A stretch of 64,000 nt of DNA, taken from the NCBI GenBank assembly GCA_013297925.1, contig JAAFJC010000006.1, positions 1 to 64,000 of the forward strand, read 5' to 3'. The DNA is from Comamonadaceae bacterium (GTDB taxonomy: Bacteria; Pseudomonadota; Gammaproteobacteria; Burkholderiales; Burkholderiaceae_C). This document shows, in pieces, positions 1 to 55,514 of this stretch (positions within the stretch are counted from its first letter, which is position 1; every line of letters begins with the position of its first letter). The translations under genes and the position numbers were made by a program. A model generated the notes under the pieces. It did no database searches. It had not been told where the DNA came from and saw only the letters and a program-made list of their open reading frames with translations.

Positions 1-2533
1 GCTTTTGGATGCCTTCGTAGGCTTCTTGGTCAATCAGCGGGCCGACATCGGTGGCAAGCTGTGCGGGGTCACCGCAACGCAACTCATTGGCCGCGCCGTG
101 CAGCATCTCGACCACTTTATCCGCAATCGCTTCATGCAAGCAGAGCAAGCGCAGAGCAGAGCAGCGCTGGCCGGCACTCTTGAAGGCGCTGGAGATAACA
201 GCATCGACCACTTGCTCGGGCAAGGCGCTGGAGTCCACCACCATGGCGTTGATGCCGCCGGTCTCTGCAATCAGAGGCGTGATCGCGCCGTCTTTTGCAG
301 CGAGGGCGCGGTTGATGGTTTTGGCAACGAAGGTGGAGCCAGTGAAGACCACGCCCGCTATACCTTCGAGAGCAACGAGTGCAGCGCCTACAGTTTCTCC
401 AGGGCCATGCAGTACTTGCAGAGCCGCTTCGGGTACGCCGGCGGCATGCAAGAGCTTTGCAGCCTCTAAGGCAACGGCGGGCGTTTGCTCAGCGGGTTTG
501 GCGAGCACCGCGTTGCCAGTGGCCAGCGCTGCGGCCACTTGGCCTAAGAAGATTGCCAACGGGAAATTCCAAGGGCTGATGCAGACCCAGACGCCGCGTG
601 GTTTGAGTCTGAGCTCATTCGTCTCCCCGGTGGGTGAGGGCATGCTTTTCGGTTGCATCACGCGCTGGGCTTCGACGGCGTAATAGCGCAGGAAATCCAC
701 CGCTTCGCGCACTTCGGCCACGGCATCGCCCCAAGTCTTGTGCGCTTCTTTCACGAGCAGGGCGCAGAACTTTGGCGTTTGCAATTCAAGCGCATCGGCT
801 GCTCTTTGCAATATGGCTGCACGCTGCTGCACAGAGCACTTGCTCCAAATTTGATAGCTGCTCGCGCAATCTTTATGCCGGCTAATGGCCAGTTCGGCAT
901 CAAAAACAGGGATCAAAGACACTTCGCAAGCTGCATAGGCTACAAGCATCGGCGCGCGATGCACCTCATTTGCCAGATCAAAGCCCGCGCTGTTTTTACG
1001 CTCCTTGCCAAACAAATCTGGCGGCAGCGGCAAGCTGACCTGCGCCGACAGATGCAGTGGCGATGCAAGCAGCTCATCCATGCGCACCGCCTCATCGGAG
1101 AGCTGATGCACAAACGATGAATTCGCGCCGTTTTCCAGCAGGCGGCGCACAAGGTAGGCGAGCAAATCGCGGTGAGCACCAACCGGCGCATAAATTCGTA
1201 GCCTCACCAGCGGATTTTTCAGCACCTCGCGGTAAATGCCTTCGCCCATGCCATGCAGGCGTTGCAATTCGAATTCGGCGCCATTGCGGCTGGCCATTTG
1301 CATGATCGCGGCAATCGTGGCTGCGTTATGGGTGGCGAACTGCGGATAGATCACGTCCTTCGCCGCCAAAAGAGCCGCAGCGCAGGCCAAGTAGCTCACA
1401 TCGGTGTGATGCTTATGGGTGAATACGGGGTAATGCGGTAACCCCAGCTCCTGAGCCCGCTTGATCTCGGCATCCCAATACGCGCCTTTCACGAGGCGGC
1501 ACATGAGCTTGATGCCATGCTTGCGAGCGATGCGCGCCACTTCGTCGATCAGCTCGACTGAGCGGGTTTGGTAGGCCTGAAGCGCGAGGCCGAAGCCGCT
1601 CCATAGCGGAAATTGCTTGGCTATTTTGATGATCAAAGCTTCAAACACATTGAGCGAGAGCTCTAAGCGATCGACCTCTTCTGCATCAATGGTCAGATTC
1701 ATATCGGCAAGAGCTGCTTGCTCGCAAAGCTGCCACACGCGCGGCACCAGCTCGCTCATCACCCGATCATGCTGAGCCCACTCGTAGCGCGGATGCAGCG
1801 CGGAGAGTTTGATGGAGATACCATCTCCATTTTTTGCGGTATTACTAAAGTCTTTTTGGCCATTCGCCGGCATAGAATCTGCGCGAGCAGCTATTACTTT
1901 AATAGCGTTTGAATAGCTTGCCAGATACAAATCAGCATCATGCTGCGTGCGCGCGCCTTCACCCAGCATGTCAAAACTGAAAGCCACGCCGCTCTTTTTT
2001 CGCTCCGCGTGCGCCACATCCAAAGCTTCATCAATCGTTTGCCCGAGCACGAATTGTTTGCCCAGCAATTGCACGGCGCGCAGTGTGGCGGTGACCACGG
2101 TTTTCGCGCCAAACTTGGCGAGCAAACCGGGCTGCGAAGAGCGGTCAGCATCAGGCAAGAAGTGCTTGCTCATGGAAATCGCGGCGCTGCTCAATCGCGT
2201 TAGAGCTGCATTGCCCGCACCTTCAAAATCCGCCCGCGAGAGCTGATCTGCCGTGAGTGCAATGGCGGTATCCGCATCTGGGATGCGCAGCAGCGCCTCG
2301 GCCAAGCGCATCAAAGCCAAGCCCTCGCTGGACGAGAGGGGGTATTCGCGCAGCAGCGATTCCATCGCCCAAAATGGTGGCGGATTCTCGCGCACCGCCT
2401 GCACCCAAGGCGCAGCTTGCGCTGCGGCGGCCGCCCAATCCAGCGCGCCTTCCAGCGCAGCCAAGCAGGCAGAGACAATCTCGCCTTCCGGGCGATAAGG
2501 CGTGGGCAAGCGATTCGGTAGAGAGAAATTCAT
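1..2533 (-). CDS. putA: Bifunctional proline dehydrogenase / P5C dehydrogenase PutA (3' end outside window)
   Basis: Oxidises proline to glutamate in two steps: an FAD-dependent proline dehydrogenase domain, then an NAD-dependent aldehyde dehydrogenase domain. The minus-strand frame is open from the ATG at 2533 to the window edge (844 codons), so the C-terminus is missing. Seen in order: an N-terminal helical region without a ribbon-helix-helix DNA-binding domain; GISIKLSALHPRYE; KGAYWDAEIKRAQELG and RIYAPVG of the dehydrogenase barrel; then ISPWNFPLAIF, ETGGINAM (near residue 756) and SAGQRCSALR with the catalytic Cys (near residue 788). Two copies of the interspersed repeat are read through: one before GISIKLSALHPRY, one in the linker between the two catalytic domains. 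Because the RHH domain is absent, regulation probably falls to the divergent Lrp gene (inference). The start fits a short N-terminus; the RBS is weak. Confidence 0.95.
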   Translation of the reverse strand, partial: MNFSLPNRLPTPYRPEGEIVSACLAALEGALDWAAAAAQAAPWVQAVRENPPPFWAMESLLREYPLSSSEGLALMRLAEALLRIPDADTAIALTADQLSRADFEGAGNAALTRLSSAAISMSKHFLPDADRSSQPGLLAKFGAKTVVTATLRAVQLLGKQFVLGQTIDEALDVAHAERKKSGVAFSFDMLGEGARTQHDADLYLASYSNAIKVIAARADSMPANGQKDFSNTAKNGDGISIKLSALHPRYEWAQHDRVMSELVPRVWQLCEQAALADMNLTIDAEEVDRLELSLNVFEALIIKIAKQFPLWSGFGLALQAYQTRSVELIDEVARIARKHGIKLMCRLVKGAYWDAEIKRAQELGLPHYPVFTHKHHTDVSYLACAAALLAAKDVIYPQFATHNAATIAAIMQMASRNGAEFELQRLHGMGEGIYREVLKNPLVRLRIYAPVGAHRDLLAYLVRRLLENGANSSFVHQLSDEAVRMDELLASPLHLSAQVSLPLPPDLFGKERKNSAGFDLANEVHRAPMLVAYAACEVSLIPVFDAELAISRHKDCASSYQIWSKCSVQQRAAILQRAADALELQTPKFCALLVKEAHKTWGDAVAEVREAVDFLRYYAVEAQRVMQPKSMPSPTGETNELRLKPRGVWVCISPWNFPLAIFLGQVAAALATGNAVLAKPAEQTPAVALEAAKLLHAAGVPEAALQVLHGPGETVGAALVALEGIAGVVFTGSTFVAKTINRALAAKDGAITPLIAETGGINAMVVDSSALPEQVVDAVISSAFKSAGQRCSALRLLCLHEAIADKVVEMLHGAANELRCGDPAQLATDVGPLIDQEAYEGIQK
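848..890 (-). repeat. Interspersed repeat, copy in putA linker
   Basis: Contains GATAGCTGCTCGCGCA followed by the tail TTTATGCCGGC. It lies antisense to putA and is translated through in a frame unlike the other copies (peptide LAISRHKDCASSYQ), in the linker between the proline dehydrogenase and P5C dehydrogenase domains. Confidence 0.75.
1858..1906 (-). repeat. Interspersed repeat, copy in putA proline dehydrogenase part
   Basis: Near-consensus copy. In the putA sense direction it has GCTATT...AATAGCTGCTCGCGCA and then GATTCTATGCCGGC. It is translated as AIKVIAARADSMPANG, in a loop just before the conserved GISIKLSALHPRY segment. Confidence 0.85.
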
Positions 2534-4430: not shown

Positions 4431-5693
4431 TCAAGCAGCAAAAAACGCCATCAGCTCATCTTTCTGAGCATACGCATCACGCTCACCGAGGGCCATGAGC
4501 GGCTGCGTGAACTCTGGCTCAAAGAGCAAATAGCTCGCCAATCCTGCACCCGCATTGCCATCTTTTCCCGCTTTACCCGCAAGGGAAGAAAGCACCGAAC
4601 GTACCGCCACAGGCAAGGCATAAGCGCTTTGGCGCGCCAGATCATCAAGCGATTCACTGGGCGCAATGCTCATCACCTGCACCCGCCGATAGGGCATCAC
4701 CGCCGCCACCTCGCGCGGCAGCTGATCCAGCGTGTGGTTCATGCGCTGCGCCTGCTCCACATCGCCTTGCAAGGTGTCGTGAAACACGCTGGCCAGCGCA
4801 TGGCCGAGCACGCCGCCCACCCCAGGCGCTATCAATTGCGGAGCGCCTTGCGCAGGTTCCATGGCGTTATTCAGTCGTTTTTGTATTGAATTGGAGCTTC
4901 CAAAGCTACTGCGCTGCGGCTGCCCCACGCCAATGACCAACACTCTCGTAGCCCCGAGATGCAACGCTGGCGAAAGCGGTGAGGTCTGCCGCATCGAGCC
5001 ATCGCCAAAAAATTCGCTTTTGCCCTCCACCCAGATCGGCTGCGAAGGAAAAATCAGCGGGATGGCGCTAGATGCCATCAAATGCTCCATAGTGATCGGC
5101 TGAAATTCTGCGCGCCTGCCGGGGCGGCTCCAAGCCTCCTGCTTGTCATCACGCGCCGTGTGGCAAAACGTCCAATGTACACCCGAGCTGTAGCTGGAAG
5201 CCGTCACGGCTAGCGCATGCAAAGCCTTCGCTTTCAGTGCTTCATCAATGCCCTGCAGCGAGATAGCTTTGTGCAAGGTGTCGGCCAGTGGGAAATTGTC
5301 TAGCAGTGCGCCGCTATCTCGGATTTGCCGAGATAGATGCCAAGCCGTGGCGATGCGGGAGAGCTTCGTCCAGACGGGTACATGTAAGCGATAGACCTGA
5401 GAGCTGCGCAGCCCTTGCCAAAACTGCGCGAGCGCATCAAGTGCAGCCAGGCCCTGCTCAGCGCGTGCTGCCAGAAAGCTGGCGTTCAAAGCGCCCGCAG
5501 AGGTACCTACGAAGAGTTGAAAGGGCAGCTTGGCTGCGGGCAAGCCTTGGGCTTGAGCGCCTAGCATCTGCCCAAGAGCCTTAAGCACGCCAGCTTGATA
5601 GGCCGTGCGCGCGCCGCCGCCCATCAGCACAAGTGCGGTGCGCGGCTCACTGGGGCGCACGAGTCCCGCATGAATCAGTGTAGAGAGCGTCAT
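4431..5693 (-). CDS. Patatin-like phospholipase family protein
   Basis: Predicted serine lipid acyl hydrolase of about 420 residues. The oxyanion-hole motif GGGARTAYQAG is near the N-terminus, the nucleophile elbow is GTSAGALNA (GxSxG), and the catalytic dyad Asp is in FFGDGSMRQTSPL (DG[S/A/G]). A C-terminal segment of about 120 residues follows the catalytic core. No signal peptide is visible, so it probably acts in the cytoplasm or at the inner membrane face. I chose the ATG at 5693; an ATG 10 codons upstream is possible and would nearly touch the start of the divergent MFS gene. The substrate cannot be told from sequence. Confidence 0.9.
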   Translation of the reverse strand: MTLSTLIHAGLVRPSEPRTALVLMGGGARTAYQAGVLKALGQMLGAQAQGLPAAKLPFQLFVGTSAGALNASFLAARAEQGLAALDALAQFWQGLRSSQVYRLHVPVWTKLSRIATAWHLSRQIRDSGALLDNFPLADTLHKAISLQGIDEALKAKALHALAVTASSYSSGVHWTFCHTARDDKQEAWSRPGRRAEFQPITMEHLMASSAIPLIFPSQPIWVEGKSEFFGDGSMRQTSPLSPALHLGATRVLVIGVGQPQRSSFGSSNSIQKRLNNAMEPAQGAPQLIAPGVGGVLGHALASVFHDTLQGDVEQAQRMNHTLDQLPREVAAVMPYRRVQVMSIAPSESLDDLARQSAYALPVAVRSVLSSLAGKAGKDGNAGAGLASYLLFEPEFTQPLMALGERDAYAQKDELMAFFAA

Positions 5694-18490: not shown

Positions 18491-18507
18491 ATTTCAGCCG
18501 TTCATTC

Positions 18508-18549
18508 GCTATAAATAAAAGAGCACGTCGCGCAGTATCTATGCCGCCG
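18508..18549 (+). repeat. Interspersed repeat, degenerate copy in the secA terminator
   Basis: GCTATAAATAAAAG then GTCGCGCAGTATCTATGCCGCC: the second half matches the repeat tail with two changes. It supplies most of the loop of the terminator that follows secA. Confidence 0.65.
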
Positions 18550-18565
18550 AAGTGCTCTTTTTGCT
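18518..18565 (+). terminator. Terminator after secA, with a repeat in its loop
   Basis: AAAGAGCAC (18518-18526) pairs perfectly with GTGCTCTTT (18552-18560), followed by T residues. The 25-nt loop is longer than usual because it contains the interspersed repeat tail. Confidence 0.7.
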
Positions 18566-18583: not shown

Positions 18584-19813
18584 ATGGCCGTTAACTTCAT
18601 CCCCACGGATTATTCCCAATTGCATCCCATCGCAGGCGTGCGCATCGGCGTTGTGGAAGCCGGCGTGCGCAAAGCCCATCGCAAAGACGTGACGGTGATG
18701 CTGCTCGATGAGGGCGCAAGTGTCGCGGGTGTGTTCACGCTCAATCGCTTTTGTGCTGCGCCTGTGCAGATGTGTCGCGATCACTTGGCTAAAAACTTCG
18801 GTATTCGTGCGATCCTCATCAACACTGGCAATGCCAATGCCGGCACAGGCGACGATGGCCTCGCCCGCGCTCGCTCCACATGCGTGGCGATGGCTCGCCA
18901 TCTGGATATCGCGCCTGAGCAGGTGCTACCGTTCTCCACCGGCGTGATCATGGAGCCCCTGCCCAACGACCGCATCGAAGCAGCACTCCCCGCCGCCCTG
19001 AAAGACGCGCAGCCTGCCCACTGGGGCAAAGCCGCCGAAGGCATCATGACGACCGACACGCTGCCCAAAGCCTTCAGCGAAAAAGTCGTGATCGCCGGCA
19101 AGACCGTCACCGTCACTGGCATCAGCAAAGGCGCAGGCATGATCCGCCCTAACATGGCCACCATGCTCGGCTTCTTAGCCACGGATGCCGTGATCCCGCA
19201 GGCGACGCTGCAGCAACTCGCCAAAGGCTTGGCTGATCAATCCTTCAACCGCGTCACGATTGATGGCGACACGTCCACGAACGACAGCTTCATCGTCATT
19301 GCTACAAATAAAGTAGCACTTGGCGCAGATTCTATGCCGGCGACTGGCGATTTTGAGGCCCTAAAAGCCGCCATGCTGCGCGTTTCACAAAAACTCGCGC
19401 AAGCCATCGTGCGAGACGGTGAAGGCGCGACAAAATTCATCACTGTGAAAGTCACAGGCGGGAAAGTGCAAGAAGAATGCACCAAAGCAGCCTACGCTAT
19501 CGCGCACTCCCCCTTGGTCAAAACCGCCTTCTTCGCCAGCGACCCCAACCTCGGCCGCATCTTGGCAGCAGTCGGCTACGCAGGCATCACCGATCTCGAT
19601 CAAACCAAAATTGCCTTGCATCTCGATGATGTCCACGTGGTGCAAAACGGTGGTCGCCGCGCCGAATACAAAGAAGAAGACGGTGCACGCGTCATGAAGC
19701 AATCAGAAATCACAGTCCACGTCGATCTCGGTCGTGGCAGTGCTTCGGATACGGTATGGACTTGCGATTTTTCGTACGACTATGTGAAGATCAATGCGGA
19801 TTACCGCAGCTAA
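18584..19813 (+). CDS. argJ: Bifunctional ornithine acetyltransferase / N-acetylglutamate synthase
   Basis: 409 residues. Transfers acetyl groups from N-acetylornithine to glutamate in the cyclic arginine pathway. Conserved segments: [11 protein letters not shown] near residue 82-92; [21 protein letters not shown], where autocleavage before Thr193 makes the alpha and beta chains; [12 protein letters not shown]; and [15 protein letters not shown]. The N-terminal Nterm-block is the family start ([22 protein letters not shown]). A repeat copy is read in frame at about residues 240-255 ([18 protein letters not shown]) between TSTNDSFIV and the next helix, a region that is variable in the family. 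Confidence 0.97.
19301..19348 (+). repeat. Interspersed repeat, copy in argJ
   Basis: GCTACAAATAAAGTAGC is followed by GCGCAGATTCTATGCCGGC, a consensus tail. It is read as [17 protein letters not shown]. Confidence 0.85.
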
Positions 19814-19833
19814 TTCAAAGACAGAACATCCAG

Positions 19834-19946
19834 ACGCGAAAGGCGCGAAAGTTACGCGAAAGACGCAAAAAAGAAATTCAAAAATGAATCTGAATCTCTT
19901 TTCTCTTTTTGGTATTTCTTTCGCGTAACTTTTGCGTCTTTCGCGA
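19834..19946. repeat. Long inverted repeat between argJ and the DUF815 ATPase gene
   Basis: Left arm 19834-19863 and right arm 19917-19946 are 30 nt each and match as inverted copies at 27 of 30 positions. The shared core is AAAGTTACGCGAAAGA. A 53-nt AT-rich spacer separates them. It could act as a transcript stem-loop or a small mobile (MITE-like) element; the 157-bp gap 19814-19970 holds nothing else I can support. Confidence 0.75.
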
Positions 19947-19970
19947 CCGGAAACTTGTATTTCAAAACCT

Positions 19971-20843: not shown

Positions 20844-21142
20844 CCCGTAGTTGGGTATTGCCGCGATGTGTGAATCACGTTGTGGACTTCCACAGTTGTC
20901 GCGGTAACTCTAACGACTGCGATATAGCGATATCTGCTGATCACATACTCCCGCGTAGCTTCTACGCGCCCGATGCGCGTACGCAAGGGGAAGAAGCACA
21001 AGCTCTCAATCTGCGCCACCATATCGGCGATCATCTCCAAAGCGAATGCAGCGTTGACCTCTTGGGTGTAGTAAAGCGCAATGCTTGCTAAGTCTTGCTC
21101 AGCCGTATCTTTCCAGTCGATCTGGTGCGTTGCCTCAACCAC
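20840..21142 (-). CDS. ParE/RelE-like toxin
   Basis: 100 residues of the ParE toxin superfamily: DWKDTAEQDLASIALYYTQE, then FFPLRTRIGRVEATREYVIS, then YRYIAVVRVTATTVEVHNVIHTSRQYP, the last being the usual conserved strand with an Arg at the active-site end. It begins with GTG 12 bp after the antitoxin stop. It probably inhibits gyrase or mRNA translation when free; which one cannot be said from sequence. Confidence 0.85.
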   Translation of the reverse strand: MVEATHQIDWKDTAEQDLASIALYYTQEVNAAFALEMIADMVAQIESLCFFPLRTRIGRVEATREYVISRYRYIAVVRVTATTVEVHNVIHTSRQYPTTG

Positions 21143-21153
21143 TTGACGAACTC

Positions 21154-21477
21154 TCAGTGGGCAGCAGCTTGCAATTTCTCAGAGTGCGCCAACACCTTGG
21201 CTCGAATGCTTGCCATCAACTCTTGCGTGGTGAATGATCTTGATTGACCGCTATCAGCGCGATCTAAGCTGGTCTGCACTTTCGTGCGAAACCATTCGTC
21301 GTAGCCCGCATCCTTCCCAGCGTGAATGGCCTGTACGACATCGCTCGCGTGATCGCCAAATGGAATCATGATGCCCACAGAGCGCCCGTTCTTCGTGACG
21401 ATGACCGGCTCACGCTGCATCGCATCGAGAAATTCGCCGAAATGGGTTTTAGCTTCTTTGGCGGTGAAGGTTTTCAT
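21154..21477 (-). CDS. Phd/YefM-type antitoxin
   Basis: 107 residues. MKTFTAKEAKTHFGEFLDAMQREPVIVTKNGRSVGIMI is the standard Phd/YefM DNA-binding and dimer fold; the rest (about 65 residues) is a longer than usual C-terminus that would wrap the toxin. It lies immediately upstream of the toxin gene, so the two form one operon that is probably autorepressed. Confidence 0.88.
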   Translation of the reverse strand: MKTFTAKEAKTHFGEFLDAMQREPVIVTKNGRSVGIMIPFGDHASDVVQAIHAGKDAGYDEWFRTKVQTSLDRADSGQSRSFTTQELMASIRAKVLAHSEKLQAAAH

Positions 21478-22462: not shown

Positions 22463-22966
22463 TCAGTGCTTGTGCCCACTCATGTCTTTGCCGGGGGCGG
22501 AGCCGGGGGCGCGGGCTGCGACGGGGATTTTGACTTCCACTTTGCTTTGCTCGCCTTTGGCGTTGGCAAAGGTGAGCGTGACGGGCACTTCGGTATTGAC
22601 CTTGAGCGATTGCTTGAGATCGAGCAGCATGATGTGAAAGCCGCCGGGCTTGAGCTCTACCGCCTTGCCGGCGGGCAGCTCTAAGCCGCCTTTGACTTCG
22701 GCCATTTTCATGACCGAGCCTTCCATTTTCATCTCGTGCACTTCGCCGATTTTCGCAACGGGCGATGACACGGCGACGAGTTTCATAGCAACCGGTGAGG
22801 TGAGCTTCATGAAGCCGCCTGTGCCGCTTTGGCCTTCGACAGCGGTGCGGATCCATGCGCCTTCGATTTTCACGTCAGAGGCGGTTTGGGCTTGGATATT
22901 GAGGCAAAACAAGGCAATCGCCGGCAAGAATAATGCGCGGCATGCTATCGATTTAAGAGTGTTCAT
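22463..22966 (-). CDS. PCu(A)C-type periplasmic copper chaperone
   Basis: 167 residues. An N-terminal signal peptide is followed by the DUF461 fold with the copper site pattern HEMKMEGSVMKM ... GGFHIMLLDLK (H-M ... H-M). Such proteins carry Cu(I) to cytochrome oxidase assembly. A second metal-like cluster ends the protein (DMSGHKH). The signal peptide core (SIACRALFLPAIA) is encoded by a copy of the interspersed repeat. It is the third gene of a copper cluster on the minus strand. Confidence 0.9.
   Translation of the reverse strand: MNTLKSIACRALFLPAIALFCLNIQAQTASDVKIEGAWIRTAVEGQSGTGGFMKLTSPVAMKLVAVSSPVAKIGEVHEMKMEGSVMKMAEVKGGLELPAGKAVELKPGGFHIMLLDLKQSLKVNTEVPVTLTFANAKGEQSKVEVKIPVAARAPGSAPGKDMSGHKH
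22919..22952 (-). repeat. Interspersed repeat, copy in the PCu(A)C signal peptide
   Basis: In gene sense: ATCGATAGCATGCCGCGCA, then TTATTCTTGCCGGC. It is read as SIACRALFLPA, the hydrophobic core of the signal peptide, in the same frame as the YcnI copy. Confidence 0.65.
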
Positions 22967-22984
22967 GATGGGTCTTTCAGAGGT

Positions 22985-23587
22985 TTAGTGTTTGTGGCCG
23001 GCGTGTGGGTCAGAGGCGGGTTTGGCTGCGGGCGTTCCCGTAGGAGCGGCGGCAGGTGCAACGACGTTAAGCAAGGCTGCAGGGTACTTCAAGCCGCGTG
23101 TGCTGGTGCCTTGTGGGGGGATTTCTGTCCAGGGGTTGCTGCCGGTTTTGCTGCCGTCTTGGCACAGCTGTGTGACTTTGAACCACGCCGCTCCTGCGGG
23201 CATCGCCGCGCGGCCACGAAGGGTGAACTCGTCGTATTGGCTGTCGGGCAATGCTGCTGAAGGTAATGCTGTCCAAGTGATCTCGGTCACGTCTTCCGTG
23301 ACTTGTTTGCCGTGGCTGTCGTAGGGTGTGGTGAGTTTTTCGGTTTTTGTTTGCAGCGTCCAGCCTGCTTTGGGCATGGGCTTGGCACCTTGAAAGCCTG
23401 CAGGTATTTGCACACGCAGCGACGTGGTGGGCAAGCCATCGCAGCCGTGGCCGACGCGCAGCACGGCTTTGTACGTGCTGCCTGTTTCAATTTGCTGTTG
23501 CTCGAGTGTTACGTGAGAAAAAGCACTAATAGCCGGCATGAAACCTGCGCAGAGTGCTATGAATTTGAGAGTGTATGAATGGGACAT
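22985..23587 (-). CDS. YcnI-like DUF1775 copper-binding protein
   Basis: 200 residues. Signal peptide (SYTLKFIALCAGFMPAISAF), then mature HVTLEQQQIETGSTYKAVLRV with the N-terminal His that binds Cu in YcnI, and VGHGCDGLPTTSLRVQIPAGF. A Pro/Ala-rich linker and a HAGHKH tail end it. It is co-encoded with the PCu(A)C and DUF2946 genes. The start at 23587 yields a clean signal peptide. A repeat copy encodes the signal peptide core. Confidence 0.9.
   Translation of the reverse strand: MSHSYTLKFIALCAGFMPAISAFSHVTLEQQQIETGSTYKAVLRVGHGCDGLPTTSLRVQIPAGFQGAKPMPKAGWTLQTKTEKLTTPYDSHGKQVTEDVTEITWTALPSAALPDSQYDEFTLRGRAAMPAGAAWFKVTQLCQDGSKTGSNPWTEIPPQGTSTRGLKYPAALLNVVAPAAAPTGTPAAKPASDPHAGHKH
23531..23566 (-). 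repeat. Interspersed repeat, copy in the YcnI signal peptide
   Basis: In gene sense: AATTCATAGCACTCTGCGCA, then GGTTTCATGCCGGC. It is read as FIALCAGFMPAIS, the h-region and the lead-up to the cleavage site. Confidence 0.8.
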
Positions 23588-25486: not shown

Positions 25487-26749
25487 TTAGAGCTTTTCGA
25501 GAATTTGTGCTCGTGCTGCCGCGATAGCTCGACCGATTTGCTCAGTGCGTTTTCCTTCGGCCATGGCCTGCTGAGCGATCTCAGCAGTGGGCACAGAAAG
25601 CACTTTTTGCAGCGCAGACGCCAAGCGCAGTGCCGGCATATAGATCTCATCTTGCAGGCCGAGCCGCCCACGCGCATCGCATTCACAAGCTTGCAGCACC
25701 TGCAAAAAACGCTGCGGCTTGCGAATCGCATCGCATCGCTCAAGTAGCCGCAACGTGGCCTTGGCATCCAGCTCAGCACTGCGATGAATATTGCCATGCT
25801 CTTTGGCCACAACCACGGCCAGCTCTTTGCATTCGGTCGGCACGCGAAGGCGCTCGCAGATCGGCAGCAGCAGATCCACGCTTCTGATTTCATGCCCAAT
25901 ATGGCGCGGCAGCACGTCTTGCGGCGTGGTGCCCTTACCCAGATCGTGCACAAGACAAGCAAAGCGCACAGGCAAAGGCGCTTGAAGCTGCGCCGCCATA
26001 TCCAACACCATCATCAGATGCACACCGGTATCAATCTCCGGGTGATATTCCGCGCGTTGCGGCACACCCCACAGCTGCTCCACCTCGGGCAGCAGCACTT
26101 GCAGCGCGCCGCATTGGCGCAGCACTTGGAACATCCGCGAGGGCTTGTTTTCCATCAGCCCCTTCGCAATTTCTTGCCATACGCGCTCTGCCACGAGTGC
26201 ATCCACCTCACCTGCTGCCACCATGCGACGCATCAAATCCATGGTCGGTTTGGCCACCGAGAAACCCTCATAGCGCGCCGCAAATCTAGCCACACGCAGG
26301 ATGCGCACTGGGTCTTCTTCAAAGGCGTGGCTGGTATGGCGCAGTAATTTCTCTTGAATATCTTTCTGACCGCCGTAGGGATCAATCACAGCATCTTGGG
26401 GTAGATTTTTAAGATCAAATCGGCTACTCGCCGTGAGAAAATCTGCGCAGACAGCTATGGAATTGATAGTGAGGTCACGTCGCGCCAGATCCTGCTCAAT
26501 CGTCACATCGGGCGTTGCGTGAAACTCAAAGCCGTGATAGCCGGGCGCGGTTTTGCGCTCAGTGCGAGCTAAGGCGTATTCCTCTTTCGTCTTGGGGTGA
26601 AGGAATACGGGGAAGTCTTTGCCTACAGGCAAATAGCCTGCATCGAGCATCTCTTGAGGGCTGCTACCCACAACGCACCAGTCGCGATCTGTCACGGCGC
26701 GACCCATGAGCGCATCGCGCACTGCGCCGCCGACGAGATACGTCTTCAT
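25487..26749 (-). CDS. cca: CCA-adding nucleotidyltransferase (multifunctional, with HD domain)
   Basis: 420 residues. N-terminal polymerase core: VGGAVRDALMG and DRDWCVVG (the DxD metal pair), then RRDLTINSIAV. The HD phosphohydrolase domain has CLVHDLGKGTTP. It adds or repairs the 3' CCA of tRNAs. A repeat copy is read in frame directly after RRDLTIN (SIAVCADFLTASSRFD), making that segment longer than usual before IDPYGGQKDI. It shares a 4-bp ATGA-type overlap with the rlmI-like gene upstream, so the two are translationally coupled. Confidence 0.95.
   Translation of the reverse strand: MKTYLVGGAVRDALMGRAVTDRDWCVVGSSPQEMLDAGYLPVGKDFPVFLHPKTKEEYALARTERKTAPGYHGFEFHATPDVTIEQDLARRDLTINSIAVCADFLTASSRFDLKNLPQDAVIDPYGGQKDIQEKLLRHTSHAFEEDPVRILRVARFAARYEGFSVAKPTMDLMRRMVAAGEVDALVAERVWQEIAKGLMENKPSRMFQVLRQCGALQVLLPEVEQLWGVPQRAEYHPEIDTGVHLMMVLDMAAQLQAPLPVRFACLVHDLGKGTTPQDVLPRHIGHEIRSVDLLLPICERLRVPTECKELAVVVAKEHGNIHRSAELDAKATLRLLERCDAIRKPQRFLQVLQACECDARGRLGLQDEIYMPALRLASALQKVLSVPTAEIAQQAMAEGKRTEQIGRAIAAARAQILEKL
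26421..26470 (-). repeat. Interspersed repeat, copy in cca
   Basis: In gene sense ACTATCAATTCCATAGCTG, then TCTGCGCAGATTTT and CTCACGGCG. It is read as INSIAVCADFLTAS. The tail diverges at five positions from the consensus. Confidence 0.65.
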
Positions 26750-27975
26750 TTTTTCATCACCACCAATCCCTTGAGGTATTCCCCCTCGGGAAAGCGCATG
26801 GTGATCGGGTGATCAGGCGCGGCATTCAGATGCGCGGTGATGTAGCCGTCCACCCCCGCATCCATGGCAGCACCGGCCACAATTTTGTGGAACAGATCAG
26901 CGTCGATTCCGCCAGAGCAGCTGAAGGTGTAGAGCAAGCCGCCGGGCTCTAAGAGCTTGAAAGCGAGGCGATTGATGTCTTTGTAAGCCCGTGCCGCTCT
27001 TTCCGCATGCGCTGCTGAAGGCGCGAATTTGGGAGGGTCGAGAATGATCAGATCAAATGTCCGGCCTTCGGCGATGAATTGCCGCAGGGATGCGTTCACA
27101 TCGGCATCCATGAATTGCGCACTGCCATCTGCGAGCTGCGCCTCGAAGCCGTTGAGGGCGAGATTGGCTTTCGCTCTCTCCAGCGCCGGCCCAGAAGAAT
27201 CAATGCTGGTGATTTGCGCGCCCTCCAAAGCGCCGGCATCGCGCAAGCCGGTAAGCCCCGCCACGGTGAAGCCACCGGTGTAGCAATAGCAATTGAGCAT
27301 CCGGCGAAATTTCAGGCGGGCAGCTTCCTGCGCGAAGCGCTGGCGATTGTCGCGCTGATCCAGATAAAAGCCCGTTTTATGGCCCTCGGAAATGCTTACT
27401 TGCAGCTTCCAGGCATGCTCTTGAATCACCACCTCTTCCGCGCTTCCCTGCCCTGCGAGCCAACCCGTGGTTGGCGGCAAACCTTCCAAATTCCGGCTGC
27501 TTGCATCCGAGCGCTCGTAGAGTTTTTTCAAACCACTGGCTTCCAGCAATGCCGCTGCAATCAGCTTCTTTTGCCGCTCGGCGCCCGCTGATAAAAACTG
27601 CGCTACGAGCGTATCGCCATACTGATCCACGATCAAACCAGGCAGGCCATCGGCCTCACCGTGTACGAGGCGCACACCATCGCTCTCAATCGGGTTTTTA
27701 TAGCCCAAGCGCTTCCTCGCAGCCATGGATTGTGCGCAAAGCGCTACGAAAAAAGGAGCATCGATGCGCTGCGCCTCATCAAAGCTCCAGACCCGCGCGC
27801 GAATTTTGCTGCTCGGGCTGAAGGCTGCCCAAGCGAGGAATTTACCCTCTGAGCTCACCACACGTACCGTCTCGCCAGAATCGCCACCGCCCGAAGCCAG
27901 CGCGTTGTCGTAAATCCAAGAGTGGCCGCGCAAGAGCGCGCGCTCTTTGCCGGGGCGAAGGGTAATCGTTTTCAT
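26746..27975 (-). CDS. Class I SAM rRNA methyltransferase (RlmI-like)
   Basis: 409 residues. An N-terminal PUA-like domain (TLRPGKERALLRGHSWIYDNAL) and a Rossmann methyltransferase domain (LNCYCYTGGFTVAG ... LIILDPPKFAPSA ... TFSCSGGI) match the RlmI family, which makes m5C at 1962 of 23S rRNA. Start at 27975 is chosen from the family N-terminus. It overlaps cca by 4 bp. Confidence 0.93.
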   Translation of the reverse strand: MKTITLRPGKERALLRGHSWIYDNALASGGGDSGETVRVVSSEGKFLAWAAFSPSSKIRARVWSFDEAQRIDAPFFVALCAQSMAARKRLGYKNPIESDGVRLVHGEADGLPGLIVDQYGDTLVAQFLSAGAERQKKLIAAALLEASGLKKLYERSDASSRNLEGLPPTTGWLAGQGSAEEVVIQEHAWKLQVSISEGHKTGFYLDQRDNRQRFAQEAARLKFRRMLNCYCYTGGFTVAGLTGLRDAGALEGAQITSIDSSGPALERAKANLALNGFEAQLADGSAQFMDADVNASLRQFIAEGRTFDLIILDPPKFAPSAAHAERAARAYKDINRLAFKLLEPGGLLYTFSCSGGIDADLFHKIVAGAAMDAGVDGYITAHLNAAPDHPITMRFPEGEYLKGLVVMKK

Positions 27976-28014
27976 GCCCGTATTGTCGCGCATGAAACTC
28001 ACATCAGGCTGAAA

Positions 28015-30352: not shown

Positions 30353-30356
30353 GAGA

Positions 30357-30377
30357 GTAGCTCCTGAATTTGTAGCA
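30357..30377 (-). repeat. Short repeat (GCTACAAATTCAGGAG), copy holding the DUF484 gene RBS
   Basis: In gene sense TGCTACAAATTCAGGAGCTAC. It matches 48802-48822 at 18 of 21 positions. Here it carries the CAGGAG ribosome binding site; read through, it would encode ATNSGAT. Confidence 0.6.
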
Positions 30378-30401
30378 GACGCTATCTTAAACCGTTTTCG
30401 C

Positions 30402-31301
30402 TCAGTCAGGAATCTCAACCGAACCTTCAAAAACAGTGACGGCTGGCCCTGTAAGAAGTACTTTGGCTTGTAGCCCTTCAGTGGCAAATGGCCATTCAAT
30501 CGAAAGCAGGCCGCCACGGGTGTATACATCCACCTTTGCATCCAGCAAGCCAAGCCGAATACCAGCCACCACCGCCGCACAAGCGCCCGTACCGCAAGCC
30601 AGAGTCTCACCCGCGCCGCGCTCATAAACGCGCAGCTTGATCGCGCTGCGGTTGATCATTTGCATGAAGCCGGCATTGACGCGGCGCGCAAAGGCAGGAT
30701 GCGTTTGCATCCACTCGCCCAGCTCATGCACCGGCGCGGTTTCCACATCCTGCACCACCTGCACGGCATGCGGGTTGCCCATCGAGAGCACGGTGACGGG
30801 ATTGTTGGTTGCTATTGATTCAGTAGCTTTCTGCGCAGATTCTATGCCGGCTAGTTGCCATTTTTGCCATGAATTTACCAATTCAGGGCTTGCATACGCT
30901 GCATCAAAGGGCACATCACTCAGCTCAAAGCATGGCGCACCCATATCCACCGTCACACGGCCATCGGCCTGCTCCGTCAGGATCAGAGTGTTGTTCACCG
31001 TCTTCACGCGAACGGAGGTTTTATTCGTCAGCCCTTTGCTGCGCACATAACGCACAAAGCAACGCGCACCATTGCCGCAATGCTCTACTTCCCCGCCATC
31101 GTTGTTGTGAATCACATATTCAAAATCAAACTCAGCAGAAGGCGCGGCGCGCACAGACAGGATTTGATCTGCGCCGACGCCGAAATGTCGGTCGCCCAGA
31201 AATTTGTATTGCGCGGCACTTAAGCCCAACAGGCCGTGCGTCTCATCAAGCACAACAAAATCATTGCCCGCGCCTTGCATTTTGGTGAAATTAACTCGCA
31301 T
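30402..31301 (-). CDS. dapF: Diaminopimelate epimerase
   Basis: 299 residues, slightly longer than the usual 275-285. [20 protein letters not shown] starts the protein; the active-site Cys pair is in [13 protein letters not shown] and [16 protein letters not shown]. It converts LL- to meso-diaminopimelate for lysine and cell wall. Extra residues ([17 protein letters not shown]) between the two halves come from a repeat copy read in frame. The start at 31301 is set by the family. Confidence 0.96.
30811..30860 (+). repeat. Interspersed repeat, copy in dapF
   Basis: GCTATTGATTCAGTAGC, then CTGCGCAGATTCTATGCCGGC as a consensus tail. It lies antisense to dapF and is read there as [17 protein letters not shown]. 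Confidence 0.85.
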
Positions 31302-37483: not shown

Positions 37484-38602
37484 TCAGGGCAACTTGCGCA
37501 GCACCAAATCGGTGAAATCTTGATCCGGCGCAGTCGCTGAGCTTTGGCGAATACGAATCGGCAGATAGCCCAGTTGGGGCGAGAGCCAGAGTTCCAAACG
37601 TTGATCAAATTCATTGCGTGGTGCTCGGCTCAACTTCAAAGCTTGCATGTTGGCTGCGGGCACGTTGATTGATTCAGTACCATGCAGTTGGAACTCCCAG
37701 AAATCAGCACTTTCAAGCCCCGCGACTGGCATCTTGATGCTGCCCAACTTAGGTAAGCTGACCAAATTGCCACGAATAATGCCAGCCAGCTGAATCAATG
37801 CACTTAATCTATCCTGCGTACCCACATACAACACATCGTCTGGTTTGTTGTTACTGAATTGAATTCGCTGGATGTCATAGCGAAAATGCGTCGCTTGTTC
37901 ACTGCGTCCAGTGCGAGCGCTGCTGTAGCGTTCAGGAGTGATGCCTTGCGCAGAAATCGTGCCTTCGCTCTTTTCCCTGCGACTTAACAACACCAATGTG
38001 GCGGCTTCCAAACTCAGCTCATAGCGACTACCGTCACTCCTCCAGATCAGGACTGCACTACCAGCGTTGGCGCTGCCTTTGTTCATAAAAGTGCCGTCAA
38101 ATTGCAGTCTGGCATTGGCCGGATAGATCATTTTCGGCTCGGTAGATCCCCCAGAAGTTGATGCGCTCTGCGTTCCATTGGCTTCAATACTCAACTCACT
38201 AACCGCTATAGTTTTAGTAGCTAATTGCGCACGCTCTACGCCAGAAGATGCTTGATTCGGTTCAATACTCTGAGATTTTTCGACCAGTGCAGGGGCGTCG
38301 TCGCTCAGTGATTGCTCAGGCGTTGAAACAGATTGAGCATTCTGGGCCCGAGGTGCTTTTTGCTGGGGTAGAAGGGGCAGTTTCGCTGGCTCTGCAGCTG
38401 GCAGCTGAAGCGGCGCGGGAACAGGCTCTATCATCCGGATGCGCAGTGGCATCGTACTTGCTGGGCCATGAAAGCTAAAGACAAAATGATTCTTTGCCAA
38501 CATCAAAGCCATCGCATGCGCCAAAAGAGCCGCCAACAGCGCACATGCCAAGCCACGCCAAGGCCAAGCCGAAGCATCCGTTGGCATGGCCATCGTATTC
38601 AC
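37484..38602 (-). CDS. DUF3108 domain protein, membrane-anchored
   Basis: 372 residues. An N-terminal membrane span (GLACALLAALLAHAMALML), a proline-rich linker, then the DUF3108 domain: YPANARLQFDGTFMNKGSA, SDGSRYELSLEAATLVLLSRRE, and FDQRLELWLSPQLGYLPIRIRQS. Family members are periplasmic and of unknown role. A degenerate repeat copy lies in the linker (GVERAQLATKTIAV). The start overlaps the IclR gene stop by 4 bp, so the two are coupled. Confidence 0.88.
   Translation of the reverse strand: MNTMAMPTDASAWPWRGLACALLAALLAHAMALMLAKNHFVFSFHGPASTMPLRIRMIEPVPAPLQLPAAEPAKLPLLPQQKAPRAQNAQSVSTPEQSLSDDAPALVEKSQSIEPNQASSGVERAQLATKTIAVSELSIEANGTQSASTSGGSTEPKMIYPANARLQFDGTFMNKGSANAGSAVLIWRSDGSRYELSLEAATLVLLSRREKSEGTISAQGITPERYSSARTGRSEQATHFRYDIQRIQFSNNKPDDVLYVGTQDRLSALIQLAGIIRGNLVSLPKLGSIKMPVAGLESADFWEFQLHGTESINVPAANMQALKLSRAPRNEFDQRLELWLSPQLGYLPIRIRQSSATAPDQDFTDLVLRKLP
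38205..38243 (+). repeat. Interspersed repeat, degenerate copy in the DUF3108 gene
   Basis: GCTATAGTTTTAGTAGC, then ATTGCGCACGCTCTACGCCAGA. It is antisense to the gene and read there as SGVERAQLATKTIA, close to the dapF copy peptide. Confidence 0.6.
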
Positions 38603-42637: not shown

Positions 42638-43552
42638 ATGAAAAAACACGATGTCGCCGGCAAGAAACCTGCGCAAGGCGCTCCTAAAAAAGGAGCATTA
42701 TCTGCTGCAGAGCAACTGGGCTTGCGCGAAGGGCAGAGTTTGGAGTTGCTGAAGGCTCTGCACATTCTCACGCGCGAAGGGGCGATCAATCAGGATTCTC
42801 GGCGCAAGCTCAAGCAAGTCAATCATTTGCTGCAATTCATTGAGCCGCTGCTGGCGAAAGTGCGTGATGCTAAGGGCTCGGTGACGCTGGTGGATCATGG
42901 GGCGGGCAAGTCGTATTTGGGGTTTATGTTGTATGACTTGTTTTTTAAATCGACCCAAGATCAAAGCGCGGGCAAAGTGATTGGCGTGGAGGTGCGCGAT
43001 GAGCTGGTGCTGCGCTCGCGGGAGTTGGCGGCGCAGTTTGGCTTCAAAGGCATGGAGTTTTTGAATCTCTCGGTGGCGGCCTCGAACGCGGCGCTGCCAG
43101 CCAGCATTGACATCGTGACAGCGCTGCATGCCTGTGATACAGCCACCGATGATGCGATGGCCTTTGCACTCTCGCATCACGCGCAGCATCTGGTGCTCGT
43201 GCCTTGCTGCCAAGCGGAGGTGGCAGGCGCGCTGAAGGCTGGTAAATCAAGTGCTTTGCAAAACAATCCTCTCGTGGAGCTCTGGCGCAGGCCGCTACAT
43301 ACGCGCGAGTTTGGCTCGCAGCTGACCAATGTGCTGCGCTGCTTGCAACTGGAGGCGCATGGCTATGAGGTGACGGTCACCGAGCTGGTGGGCTGGGAGC
43401 ATTCGATGAAGAATGAGCTCATCGTTGCCTCAAAAGGCAAGCCACATTCAAAGGCGAGTGGCCAGCGCTTATCTGCCATGCTTGATCAACTCGGGTTGAA
43501 CGAGATGCGCTCGCGCTTTTTCACACCGCTCCTCGAAAAAGAAGCCGTATGA
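42638..43552 (+). CDS. Class I SAM methyltransferase (Methyltransf_32 type)
   Basis: 304 residues. A lysine/alanine-rich start, then VDHGAGKSYLGFMLYDLFF (SAM-binding glycine motif), VIGVEVRDELVLRSRELA, and IVTALHACDTATDDAMAFALSHHAQHLVLVPCCQAEV (in part: LHACDTATDDA; VPCCQAEV). The C-terminal half continues to VGWEHSMKNELIVA. The substrate is not known. The gene overlaps the next by 4 bp (ATGA). Confidence 0.88.
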   Translation: MKKHDVAGKKPAQGAPKKGALSAAEQLGLREGQSLELLKALHILTREGAINQDSRRKLKQVNHLLQFIEPLLAKVRDAKGSVTLVDHGAGKSYLGFMLYDLFFKSTQDQSAGKVIGVEVRDELVLRSRELAAQFGFKGMEFLNLSVAASNAALPASIDIVTALHACDTATDDAMAFALSHHAQHLVLVPCCQAEVAGALKAGKSSALQNNPLVELWRRPLHTREFGSQLTNVLRCLQLEAHGYEVTVTELVGWEHSMKNELIVASKGKPHSKASGQRLSAMLDQLGLNEMRSRFFTPLLEKEAV

Positions 43553-45372: not shown

Positions 45373-46133
45373 CAGGCAGGATTATCAATATCCACAAACT
45401 CATGCTCAAGCCCCAACTGCTGGGCTATCGTGCCGGCCACCGCTGGCGCGCCATAGCGCTCGCTCGCATGATGGCCGCAAGCGATGTAGCTCACGCCCAT
45501 CTCGCGCGCGTAGTGCGCCTGCGGCTCAGAAATCTCGCCCGTGATGTACACATCTGCGCCCGCAGCAATCGCCGCTTCAAAATAGCCTTGCGCACCGCCT
45601 GTGCACCACGCTACATTTTTTATATCACCTCGCGCAGTGTTTATGCCGGCTACTTGCCGATTTAGCTTTAGATTCAGATGATTTAATAAGCTTGGGAAGT
45701 CCGCCAAGGGAGCGGTACCTAGCCATCCGAGATCTTGCTCACCGAAGCGACCAAACTCTCCATTTTCCAATGGTGTGAAGCCCAGCAGCTTGCCCAGTTG
45801 CGCGTTGTTGCCCAGCGTTGGGTGCGCGTCAAGTGGCAAGTGATAGGCATAGAGATTGATGTCGTGCGCCAACAGCTTTTGCAGCCGCTGCTTCATCCAA
45901 CCCGTTACGCGGCCATCTTGCCCACGCCAAAAGAGGCCGTGGTGCACAAAAATCGCATCTGCGCCGCGCTCAATCGCCGCGTCAATCAAAGCCACAGAAG
46001 CCGTCACACCTGAGATGATTTTGCGAATCTCGGCTTTACCCTCCACCTGCAAGCCATTGGGCCCATAGTCTTTGAAGCGCTCGGGCTGGAGAAGCTGATT
46101 AAAGGCGGCAGAGAGTTGGTCGCGGGAAGTCAT
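45372..46133 (-). CDS. Nif3-like dinuclear metal centre hydrolase family protein
   Basis: 253 residues. Metal ligands are in DAIFVHHGLFWRG, LYAYHLPLDAHPTLGNNAQL and YIACGHHASERYGAPAVA. Family members (YbgI, NIF3) form hexamers with two metal ions; GTP cyclohydrolase activity has been claimed for some. A repeat copy is read in frame in the middle of the protein (VAGINTARGDIKNVA), between two conserved blocks. The start at 46133 is assigned from the family. Confidence 0.92.
   Translation of the reverse strand: MTSRDQLSAAFNQLLQPERFKDYGPNGLQVEGKAEIRKIISGVTASVALIDAAIERGADAIFVHHGLFWRGQDGRVTGWMKQRLQKLLAHDINLYAYHLPLDAHPTLGNNAQLGKLLGFTPLENGEFGRFGEQDLGWLGTAPLADFPSLLNHLNLKLNRQVAGINTARGDIKNVAWCTGGAQGYFEAAIAAGADVYITGEISEPQAHYAREMGVSYIACGHHASERYGAPAVAGTIAQQLGLEHEFVDIDNPA
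45610..45658 (+). repeat. Interspersed repeat, copy in the Nif3-like gene
   Basis: GCTACATTTTTTATATC, then CTCGCGCAGTGTTTATGCCGGC. Antisense to the gene; read as AGINTARGDIKNVA, the same frame as in dapF. Confidence 0.75.
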
Positions 46134-46199
46134 GGCTAGAACAAGATCCAAGTAGTTCCACCATCTTAAGCGCTCCCACGCCTGAGTCACAATCACTGC

Positions 46200-52856: not shown

Positions 52857-52860
52857 TTTT

Positions 52861-52911
52861 GCTATTTATTTAATAGCTGCTCGCGCACATATTCATTGGG
52901 CTAGAGGCCAA
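52861..52911 (+). repeat. Interspersed repeat, copy between hisH and hisB
   Basis: GCTATTTATTTAATAGC, then TGCTCGCGCACATATTC and GGGCTAGAGGCCAAT. It starts with the same hairpin and GCGCA core but has a different 3' tail from the other copies, so it may be a subtype. Confidence 0.6.
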
Positions 52912-52917
52912 TATTGC

Positions 52918-53535: not shown

Positions 53536-54627
53536 TCAGATGCCACTCAAAGCCGCGAGCATTTTGGCATTCTCATCGGGCGTGCCGACGGTGAGACGAA
53601 GGCAATTTTTCAGCAGCGGGTGCATTTTGGAGATGTTTTTCACCAAGATGCCCTGCGCTTTGAGATGGGCGAAGGCTGCATCTGCATCTGGCGTGCGCAC
53701 GGTGATCATGTTCGCGTCAGACGGATAGGCTTTGAGCTTCGGTATCTTCGCCAGCGCTTCCAAAAGCATAGCGCGTTGCGCAGTAATCATGCCGGCTTGC
53801 TGCTTAAACTCTTCTGAATTCTCCAAAGCAAACAAGGCGCATTCGGCGTTGAGCACGCTGATGTTGTAAGGCGGGCGGAGCTTGTCTATCTCGTTGATCA
53901 GCGCTTGCGGGCCAGCCATATAGCCCAGGCGCACGCCAGCGAGGCCGAATTTGCTGAGTGTGCGCATGAGGAGCACGTTGGCGTTTTTCTCGGGCGCAGC
54001 TTTGATCTCATCCATCCAGCTCAGCGATGAAAACGGCTGATACGCCTCATCCATCACGACCATGCCGCCGTAGGCTGCGCAGGCGGCGATGATTTGGCGG
54101 ATGGCAGCGGCATCCCATAGGTTGGCGGTAGGATTGTTGGGATATGCAAGGTAAGTGATCGCTGGCTTTTCTTGGTTTATCGCAGCGAGCATGGCCGGCG
54201 TATCCAGCGCAAAATCCGCCGTTAAATCCACGCCAATAAACTGCAAACCTTGCAGCTGCGCGCTCATCGCATACATCACGAAGCCGGGCAGCGGAGCGAG
54301 GATTTTGGCGTTTGACACATCGCAAGCCATCGCCAGCAAAGAAATCAGCTCATCCGAGCCATTGCCCAGCATCAGGCCGTAATCAGCAGGCACTTGCGCA
54401 TAAGCGCGCAGCGCCGCCTTCAGATCATCCACCCGCTTGCCCGGATAACGATTGATCGCCACCCTGCCCAGCCGCTCTCCAAGCTTGGCTTGCAGCGCCG
54501 CAGGCAGCGCAAACGGATTTTCCATCGCATCGAGCTTGATGAAGCCCGCGCTATCTTGCACAGCATAAGCGTGCATCGATTGCACATCTTGGCGGATGAA
54601 TTTCAGAGGGGAACTGCTTGCAGTCAT
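53536..54627 (-). CDS. hisC: Histidinol-phosphate aminotransferase
   Basis: 363 residues, PLP fold type I: LGNGSDELISLLAMACD, YPNNPTANLWD, MDEAYQPFSS, and the PLP-Lys in LMRTLSKFGLAGVRLGYM. A repeat-like stretch (AGMITAQRAMLLEALA) lies near the C-terminal third. Its ATG overlaps the stop of the PIN toxin gene by 4 bp, so it is translated in tandem with vapC. Confidence 0.97.
   Translation of the reverse strand: MTASSSPLKFIRQDVQSMHAYAVQDSAGFIKLDAMENPFALPAALQAKLGERLGRVAINRYPGKRVDDLKAALRAYAQVPADYGLMLGNGSDELISLLAMACDVSNAKILAPLPGFVMYAMSAQLQGLQFIGVDLTADFALDTPAMLAAINQEKPAITYLAYPNNPTANLWDAAAIRQIIAACAAYGGMVVMDEAYQPFSSLSWMDEIKAAPEKNANVLLMRTLSKFGLAGVRLGYMAGPQALINEIDKLRPPYNISVLNAECALFALENSEEFKQQAGMITAQRAMLLEALAKIPKLKAYPSDANMITVRTPDADAAFAHLKAQGILVKNISKMHPLLKNCLRLTVGTPDENAKMLAALSGI
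53766..53797 (+). repeat. Interspersed repeat, weak copy in hisC
   Basis: CATAGCGCGTTGCGCAGTAATCATGCCGGC in part: the GCGCAG and ATGCCGGC pieces match but the hairpin half is poor. Read in hisC as AGMITAQRAM, again in the dapF frame. Could be a chance match. Confidence 0.4.
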
Positions 54628-55399: not shown

Positions 55400-55447
55400 T
55401 GTTTTGAATTGTCTTTTCTCAGAGATTTTGTGATGGTTTTCAGCAGT

Positions 55448-55489
55448 TCGCCGGCATAGAATCTGCTAAGAGTGCTATTAAATTCATAG
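55448..55489 (-). repeat. Interspersed repeat, copy upstream of the DinB gene
   Basis: Minus-strand sense: CTATGAATTTAATAGC, then ACTCTTAGCAGATTCTATGCCGGC (in part: GATTCTATGCCGGC). It lies in the gap between the divergent VapB and DinB genes, 26 bp before the DinB start. Confidence 0.75.
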
Positions 55490-55514
55490 TTCACGCCCCT
55501 CTGCCTCAACCATC

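Follow-up and report, generated by a model that had tools for sequence, protein, structure and literature searches.

Can a single piece of dispersed DNA supply the signal peptides of two unrelated proteins? The question is raised by 64,000 nucleotides (nt) from a Comamonadaceae bacterium (assembly GCA_013297925.1, contig JAAFJC010000006.1, positions 1 to 64,000); this whole stretch is called the window below. Two neighbouring minus-strand genes in it encode copper proteins (Table 1): a YcnI-like protein and a PCu(A)C copper chaperone, PCuAC for short. A preliminary description, made from the sequence alone, held that the hydrophobic core of both signal peptides is one and the same repeat. This is confirmed: the signal peptides of ycnI and pcuAC are copies of one dispersed repeat.

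YcnI starts with MSHSYTLKFIALCAGFMPAISAFSH and PCuAC with MNTLKSIACRALFLPAIALFCLNIQAQ. The two repeat copies have the same strand and the same frame, and the two signal DNAs align without gaps over 47 nt. Both repeat spans slightly exceed the limits first described. Both proteins pass a home-made heuristic for Sec signals.

The scoring model behind this was built from 310 copies of the repeat, excluding the ycnI and pcuAC copies of both sampled genomes. These are G000, the genome containing the window, and G113, a second genome of the same genus. The left-out ycnI site scores 43.3 bits (E 1.7e-12 in 64 kb) and the left-out pcuAC site 35.6 bits (E 4.3e-10). Could two ordinary hydrophobic signal peptides simply have come to resemble each other? 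Signal peptides are generally similar in composition, but none of 2000 codon-usage-matched synonymous recodings of either signal reached the real score. The best were 32.0 (ycnI) and 21.4 (pcuAC), where 1597 and 618 of the 2000, respectively, had any reported score. This means that it is the DNA itself that the two have in common, beyond mere protein similarity. The rare ATA codon (2.3 per 1000 codons) is common to both copies. When the model is applied to the first 99 nt of each of the 1470 called genes, the scores form a bimodal distribution: 22 genes have at least 15 bits, a single one has 8-15, and the others fall below 7. The recoding test rules convergence out, and we give it practically no credence. 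The same goes for a recent duplication of one gene or its 5' end, which would fit two neighbours on one strand. The proteins are unrelated and belong to different Pfam families, their likeness is confined to the 47 to 56 nt or so of the repeat, and there are hundreds of further copies. The objection of a gene duplication, raised in the preliminary description itself, therefore fails.

The repeat is 56 nt long, with the consensus tTgCTATtAATTtaATAGCacttcGCGCAGatTCTATGCCGGCgAnntGCcnaTTT (from 175 copies) and a G+C content of 43% (hand count). Its core GCGCAGATTCTATGCCGGC, allowing at most two mismatches, occurs 278 times in the 3.53 Mb of G000, and the reversed pattern not once. A sample of 1.66 Mb (864 kb of G000 and 800 kb of G113) contains 398 copies at E<1e-3, where the reversed sequence yields none; at this threshold the window has 17. 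By our home-made gene calls (1470 genes over the two sampled genomes), 221 of the 398 copies lie inside genes and 177 are intergenic. Given that called genes make up around 87% of the sample and intergenic DNA some 12.5%, intergenic DNA is favoured per base.

The genus consensus has a single open frame on each strand. The forward one reads A-I-N-L-I-A-L-R-A-D-S-M-P-A, the reverse one A-G-I-E-S-A-R-S-A-I-K-L-I-A. Copies inside genes are distributed over the frames as 79/21/7 in sense and 90/19/5 in antisense. The remaining frames contain stops, so the frame that ycnI and pcuAC share, although real, is expected and adds no further coincidence. Most in-gene copies in the two genomes sit away from the N-terminus. 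The repeat is therefore a protein-coding dispersed family that is often, but by no means always, met in signal peptides.

How frequent can be seen at the N-termini of the two sampled genomes. Of the 79 in-gene copies read in the forward open frame, 20 begin at an N-terminus, where a share of 0.106 would be expected (P 1.7e-4, with orthologues of the two genomes unmerged). Thirteen of these 20 pass the signal rule, the same home-made heuristic, which 402 of the 1470 genes pass; B_C2:414959 was judged a transmembrane segment and is not counted. When copies at equivalent sites are combined by hand, 15 distinct sites remain, nine of them signal-like (P 0.008); with ycnI and pcuAC left out, the figure is 7 of 13 (P 0.039). 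The proteins concerned include a polysaccharide deacetylase, a TctC receptor, MlaA and a SIMPL protein.

The preliminary description had one frame acting as an export signal. The sequences bear this out in so far as the frame recurs in other predicted signals, but the reverse frame also gives signal-like N-termini. Five reverse-frame N-terminal copies pass the rule, of which four look right (a BamB-like protein, an FmdE-domain protein, a DUF4136 protein and a cytochrome c); the fifth, A_C63:13592, is doubtful. The BamB-like, DUF4136 and cytochrome c bearers are lipoproteins. In G113, at C2:389548-389603 (in L138), the repeat supplies both the start codon and the signal of a lipoprotein. We take this protein to be SCO1/SenC-like, which would perhaps make it a third copper-related one. 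Judged by these N-termini, the repeat can serve as an export signal.

One enzyme has an N-terminal extension encoded by the repeat in both genomes, without a signal peptide (L151, A_C24:30818-30873, and G113:C2:469786-469841). It is presumably QueA-like.

Orthologues of several of these genes were examined in other genomes. For ycnI the set consists of the best 30 loci of 59 matching genomes, among 150 searched. The division into repeat-rich and repeat-poor genomes was fixed after the counts were known, with limits that differed slightly between the ycnI and the MlaA/CCA comparisons. At 12 bits the repeat is present at the start of ycnI in 8 of 8 repeat-rich genomes versus 1 of 22 repeat-poor ones (Fisher 1.5e-6). 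The match in G040 sits upstream of ycnI, with an unrelated signal, so the first figure becomes 7 of 8. These seven bearers score 17.2-30.8 bits once ycnI copies are kept out of the model. Repeat-poor orthologues mostly have other residues, in line with the preliminary description; in repeat-free genera, for example at Limnohabitans, Roseateles and Pelomonas loci, the YcnI signals are of similar length and different sequence. When more loci are taken in, 100 ycnI N-termini can be read and 17 of them score at least 12 bits, with certain genomes counted twice. Rhodoferax-like genomes have a second copy some 90-110 nt upstream of the one in the ycnI signal (L049:9922-9977, L050:9905-9960, L083:1559-1614).

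PCuAC is matched in 95 of 111 loci, with a readable N-terminus in 93. The repeat is found (at least 12 bits) in nine of these 93 loci, from six distinct genomes: the window's own genus (L009, L010), the Rhodoferax-like L020, L049 and L050, and L042. A by-eye candidate, L055, is not supported by the repeat model. In L020, L049 and L050 the CTATGAAATT of the repeat provides the likely start codon. By hand count, 21 residues separate the repeat's IA from the AQ before the mature part in the own genus, L049 and L083/L020, and 17 in L050. In a tree built from the mature portions of YcnI and PCuAC (73 distinct loci), the PCuAC bearers take three separate positions, and the ycnI bearers are scattered likewise. 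L011, the nearest relative of the own genus in this tree (support 0.987), is without the PCuAC repeat.

MlaA carries the repeat in 4 of 30 loci (G000, G019, G031, G039), which is 4 of 13 repeat-rich versus 0 of 17 repeat-poor genomes (P 0.026). Three of these copies are 20-21 residues from the lipobox Cys and one (L318) is 16 away (hand count). In four genera mlaA has a PF01797 (Y1_Tnp) gene at a distance of about 9-10 kb, as if vertically inherited (G000:C71, G002:C8, G014:C1, G039:C59).

In a CCA-like gene (30 loci, L345-L374), all 11 repeat-rich genomes have the repeat in the loop that follows RRDLTIN, and none of the 19 repeat-poor ones does. Freeing the model of four cca/mlaA-like copies leaves the bearers unchanged (11 CCA, 4 MlaA). 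Loop length is 15-33 residues in the ten readable bearing genomes versus 11-38 in non-bearing ones; these ranges overlap, so length is no marker of the repeat. This gene offers a convenient case for studying how a conserved enzyme takes up an in-frame insertion.

Very probably, to judge from these sequences, it is a repeat landing in tolerant sites that explains the ycnI and pcuAC signals and their recurrence elsewhere. A Comamonadaceae repeat of around 56 nt would spread in its genome and often come to sit within genes. It would leave them unbroken because its consensus is open in one frame per strand. The forward frame (roughly A-I-x-x-I-A-L-C/R-A-x-x-M-P-A) is hydrophobic and alanine-rich and contains small residues, and it may resemble the n- and h-regions of a Sec signal closely enough to serve as one. 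Signal peptides tolerate large sequence change, so copies that land there would survive and become the signal. The same course would have been run in ycnI, in pcuAC, in several other exported proteins and in other genera. We infer that insertion or gene conversion brought the copies to their places, and that tolerance rather than benefit accounts for the signal sites. The repeat-encoded signals presumably export.

Several observations weigh against this account. The signal enrichment among N-terminal forward copies is modest and the rule behind it home-made; in one of the nine signal-like sites (A_C86:18442), the repeat contributes the n-region, and by eye the hydrophobic core seems to be native. 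The reverse open frame has no N-terminal excess (12 of 90, P 0.24). Three repeat-poor ycnI signals (L012, L017, L026) have weak repeat-like traces of 9.5-11.7 bits, which are probably decayed copies. Several deep branches of the tree are poorly supported, and the tree can also be read as many losses. Finally, a clean insertion with target duplication was not seen among flanks compared between G000 and G113. Of 209 flank pairs, 37 could be placed; 35 have a gap of 33-144 nt, meaning that a copy is there, and two are empty, both intergenic by eye. Many pairs are reciprocal, so there are fewer sites than pairs.

If the copies did land, they may have done so once or repeatedly. The 3' half of the repeat differs among lineages, and this provides a handle on the matter. 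Ordinary copies are assigned to their own lineage in 386 of 405, 28 of 35, 68 of 70, 25 of 35 and 4 of 9 cases. For ycnI and pcuAC, the 3' half fits the model of its own lineage best in 11 of 13 copies (by lineage, ycnI 3 of 5 and pcuAC 2 of 2), for CCA in 2 of 3 and for MlaA in 2 of 2. In sequence terms this pattern would fit conversion or re-insertion from the genome's own repeats, without being proof of either. It would suit a single old insertion at each site, kept ever since, whose copy was later rewritten in every lineage as repeats of that genome converted it, so that signal peptide and repeat family evolved in concert. The ycnI copy stands at identical codons in the aligned bearing genera, and the constant PCuAC distance, L050 excepted, points the same way. 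Against this, the ycnI copies of G002 and G070 are closer to the G125 model than to that of their own lineage, the CCA copy of G002 goes with the G070 model, and 3 of 5 with five lineages is only modestly above chance. Bearers and non-bearers are also intermixed in the tree, so descent alone requires many losses. We consider this course a serious contender that falls somewhat short of an even chance.

Independent insertions at the same favoured sites would account for the scattered bearers in the tree, for the all-or-nothing distribution of the CCA loop copy and for the deviating MlaA position in L318. Such insertions were perhaps guided by a short similarity between site and repeat, as with the TINAMA of CCA beside the INSIA of the repeat. 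However, descent more easily explains why the position is constant to the codon in ycnI, and in PCuAC in two lineages. In addition, no empty site within a gene turned up among the flank pairs placed between the two sampled genomes, and some deep branches of the tree are, as noted, poorly supported. This makes repeated insertion possible and rather doubtful, a little more so than the single old one.

Tentatively, and with more doubt than belief, we suggest that signal peptides in this bacterial family are continually overwritten by the repeat, with the ycnI, pcuAC, mlaA and cca copies homogenised with, or re-inserted from, the repeat subfamily of their own genome. If so, stretches of proteins that are otherwise unrelated follow, in concert, the evolution of a selfish DNA family in place of each protein's own tree.

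The route to new secreted proteins that had been suggested finds no support here. Relatives that lack the repeat still show signal-like N-termini in YcnI, PCuAC and MlaA. The repeat is thus found in proteins that are exported elsewhere without it. No cytoplasmic protein that gained a signal through the repeat was seen, in data that were not systematically searched for one.

The finding does mean that many proteins with no relation to each other can owe a part of their sequence to a single small dispersed repeat, on a scale beyond the precedents as far as the available portions of their reports describe them, and that signal peptides are a recurrent landing place for it. The natural pairs of orthologues with and without the repeat make it possible to measure what such insertions cost or gain. 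Annotators and phylogeneticists are warned that a peptide motif common to several proteins in these genomes may stem from repeat DNA instead of homology.

What kind of element is this? A structured RNA or conserved hairpin was considered and rejected. An Rfam scan of the window at gathering thresholds found a tRNA alone and left the repeat unmatched. Folded as DNA, the consensus reaches -10 kcal/mol (z -2.5); neither the two signal copies nor a further in-gene copy stand out. Stem pairing is close to that of shuffled sequences in four of five lineages, the Rhodoferax-like lineage exceeding them at a few pairs only.

Repetitive extragenic palindromes (REP/REPIN) moved by a REP-associated tyrosine transposase (RAYT) do not match either. 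In G113, the genome in which adjacency was looked at, the nearest repeat copy is about 2 kb from a PF01797 match. PF01797 is matched in 15 of 16 repeat-richer and 11 of 14 repeat-poor chosen genomes, mostly as one copy (G015 has 20). It is present in both alike, so a RAYT as the mover is unsupported. The copies are also to a large part genic (221 of 398) rather than mainly extragenic. As for miniature inverted-repeat transposable elements (MITE), the two empty sites showed no clear target-site duplication.

The closest known kind, from the parts of the literature at hand, is the Rickettsia palindromic element (RPE), a protein-coding palindrome (Ogata et al. 2000, 2002, as described in PMC2229807 and PMC10969869). 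These are likewise small dispersed repeats, found in frame in unrelated conserved genes as well as between genes (PMC2229807, PMC10969869). RPE are described as 105-146 bp long with long stem-loops (PMC2229807). The present repeat shares their multi-copy dispersal and the in-frame copies in unrelated conserved genes, but is 56 nt long, has short hairpins at most with little or no covariation, and lives in Betaproteobacteria; the likeness is one of description.

For a repeat acting as a signal, the closest precedent in the available text is in Yersinia, where an RU-2/YPAL repeat lies in the signal of YPO1552, whose relatives in other genera have unrelated signals (Delihas 2007, PMC2759123). A second repeat, RU-1f, lies in YE2643, a protein with a predicted signal (PMC2759123). 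RU-2 is about 168 bp and is described there at single loci (PMC2759123), unlike the present 56 nt, which lie in the predicted signals of several proteins in several genera.

The repeat itself may have been glimpsed before. In Polaromonas naphthalenivorans CJ2 a motif pair ATAGCT(N)22CAAAAG has been reported in 125 copies, 18 of them genic, without explanation (PMC5217627). The Polaromonas copies in L042 read ATAGCT(N)22CTAAAG, one base from that motif, and the two are probably of the same family. The available portion of the CJ2 report describes a spaced motif and mentions neither proteins nor signals (PMC5217627). A Beta-proteobacterial repeat element (BRE) also occurs in Polaromonas and other Comamonadaceae, with certain copies in coding sequences; by the part of its description at hand it is about 90 bp long, has a mean G+C of 69% in Bordetella, reaches at most 29 copies per genome and is tandem in some places (PMC3110155). 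The present repeat differs from it in length, in G+C content and in its hundreds of copies, and identity with BRE was rejected on the first two, by description. Among the papers listed by the literature searches, none dealt with this repeat as a coding or signal element, or with any one repeat recruited as signal peptide across genera.

Table 1. The two copper-protein genes and the copies of the repeat in the window. Gene names marked "presumably" are provisional; "reverse frame" is the reverse open frame of the repeat, and "signal rule" the home-made heuristic.
Feature	Position	Strand	Remarks
ycnI-like gene (DUF1775, PF07987)	22985..23587	-	Pfam E 1.9e-41; start at 23587
PCu(A)C copper chaperone gene (PF04314)	22463..22966	-	Pfam E 4.4e-33
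Repeat copy, YcnI signal peptide	23519..23574	-	residues ~5-23 (TLKFIALCAGFMPAISAF); 43.3 bits, leave-out model
Repeat copy, PCuAC signal peptide	22907..22962	-	residues ~2-20 (NTLKSIACRALFLPAIALF); 35.6 bits, leave-out model
Repeat copy, in frame, CCA-like gene	26417..26472	-	loop after RRDLTIN; presumably a CCA tRNA nucleotidyltransferase-like gene, from this motif
Repeat copy, in frame, gene 26746-28002	27707..27761	-	gene presumably RlmI-like
Repeat copy, in frame, large called gene	1853..1908	-	gene presumably PutA-like
Repeat copy, antisense to the same large gene	840..895	+	frame different
Repeat copy, in frame, gene 18584-19813	19299..19354	+	gene presumably ArgJ-like
Repeat copy, immediately upstream of called start of gene 18584-19813	18506..18561	+	
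Repeat copy, antisense, reverse frame, gene 30402-31301 (-)	30809..30864	+	
Repeat copy, antisense, reverse frame, gene 45372-46205 (-)	45608..45663	+	
Repeat copy, antisense, reverse frame, gene 56580-58730 (-)	58622..58677	+	near N-terminus; fails signal rule
Repeat copy, antisense, reverse frame, gene 53536-54627 (-)	53754..53809	+	
Repeat copy, antisense, reverse frame, gene 42638-43552 (+)	42643..42698	-	at N-terminus; fails signal rule
Repeat copy, antisense, reverse frame, gene 37484-38434 (-)	38203..38258	+	
Repeat copy, antisense, reverse frame, gene 4431-5693 (-)	4826..4872	+	shortened
Repeat copy, 5' end of short called open reading frame	55437..55490	-	unusual frame
Repeat copy, outside called genes	52859..52914	+	

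The window has some further features of its own. A small pair of adjacent minus-strand open reading frames at 20840-21477 presumably resembles a ParE/RelE and Phd toxin-antitoxin system. Between two genes there is a 35-nt inverted repeat (19829-19863 and 19917-19951) that is 89% complementary and has GCGAAAG-like units. Another inverted pair, of 29 nt and 90% complementary, has its arms far apart at 30355-30383 and 48796-48824, the second reading AGCGCCTGCTACTAATTCAGGAGCAACTC; this is perhaps another small repeat family.
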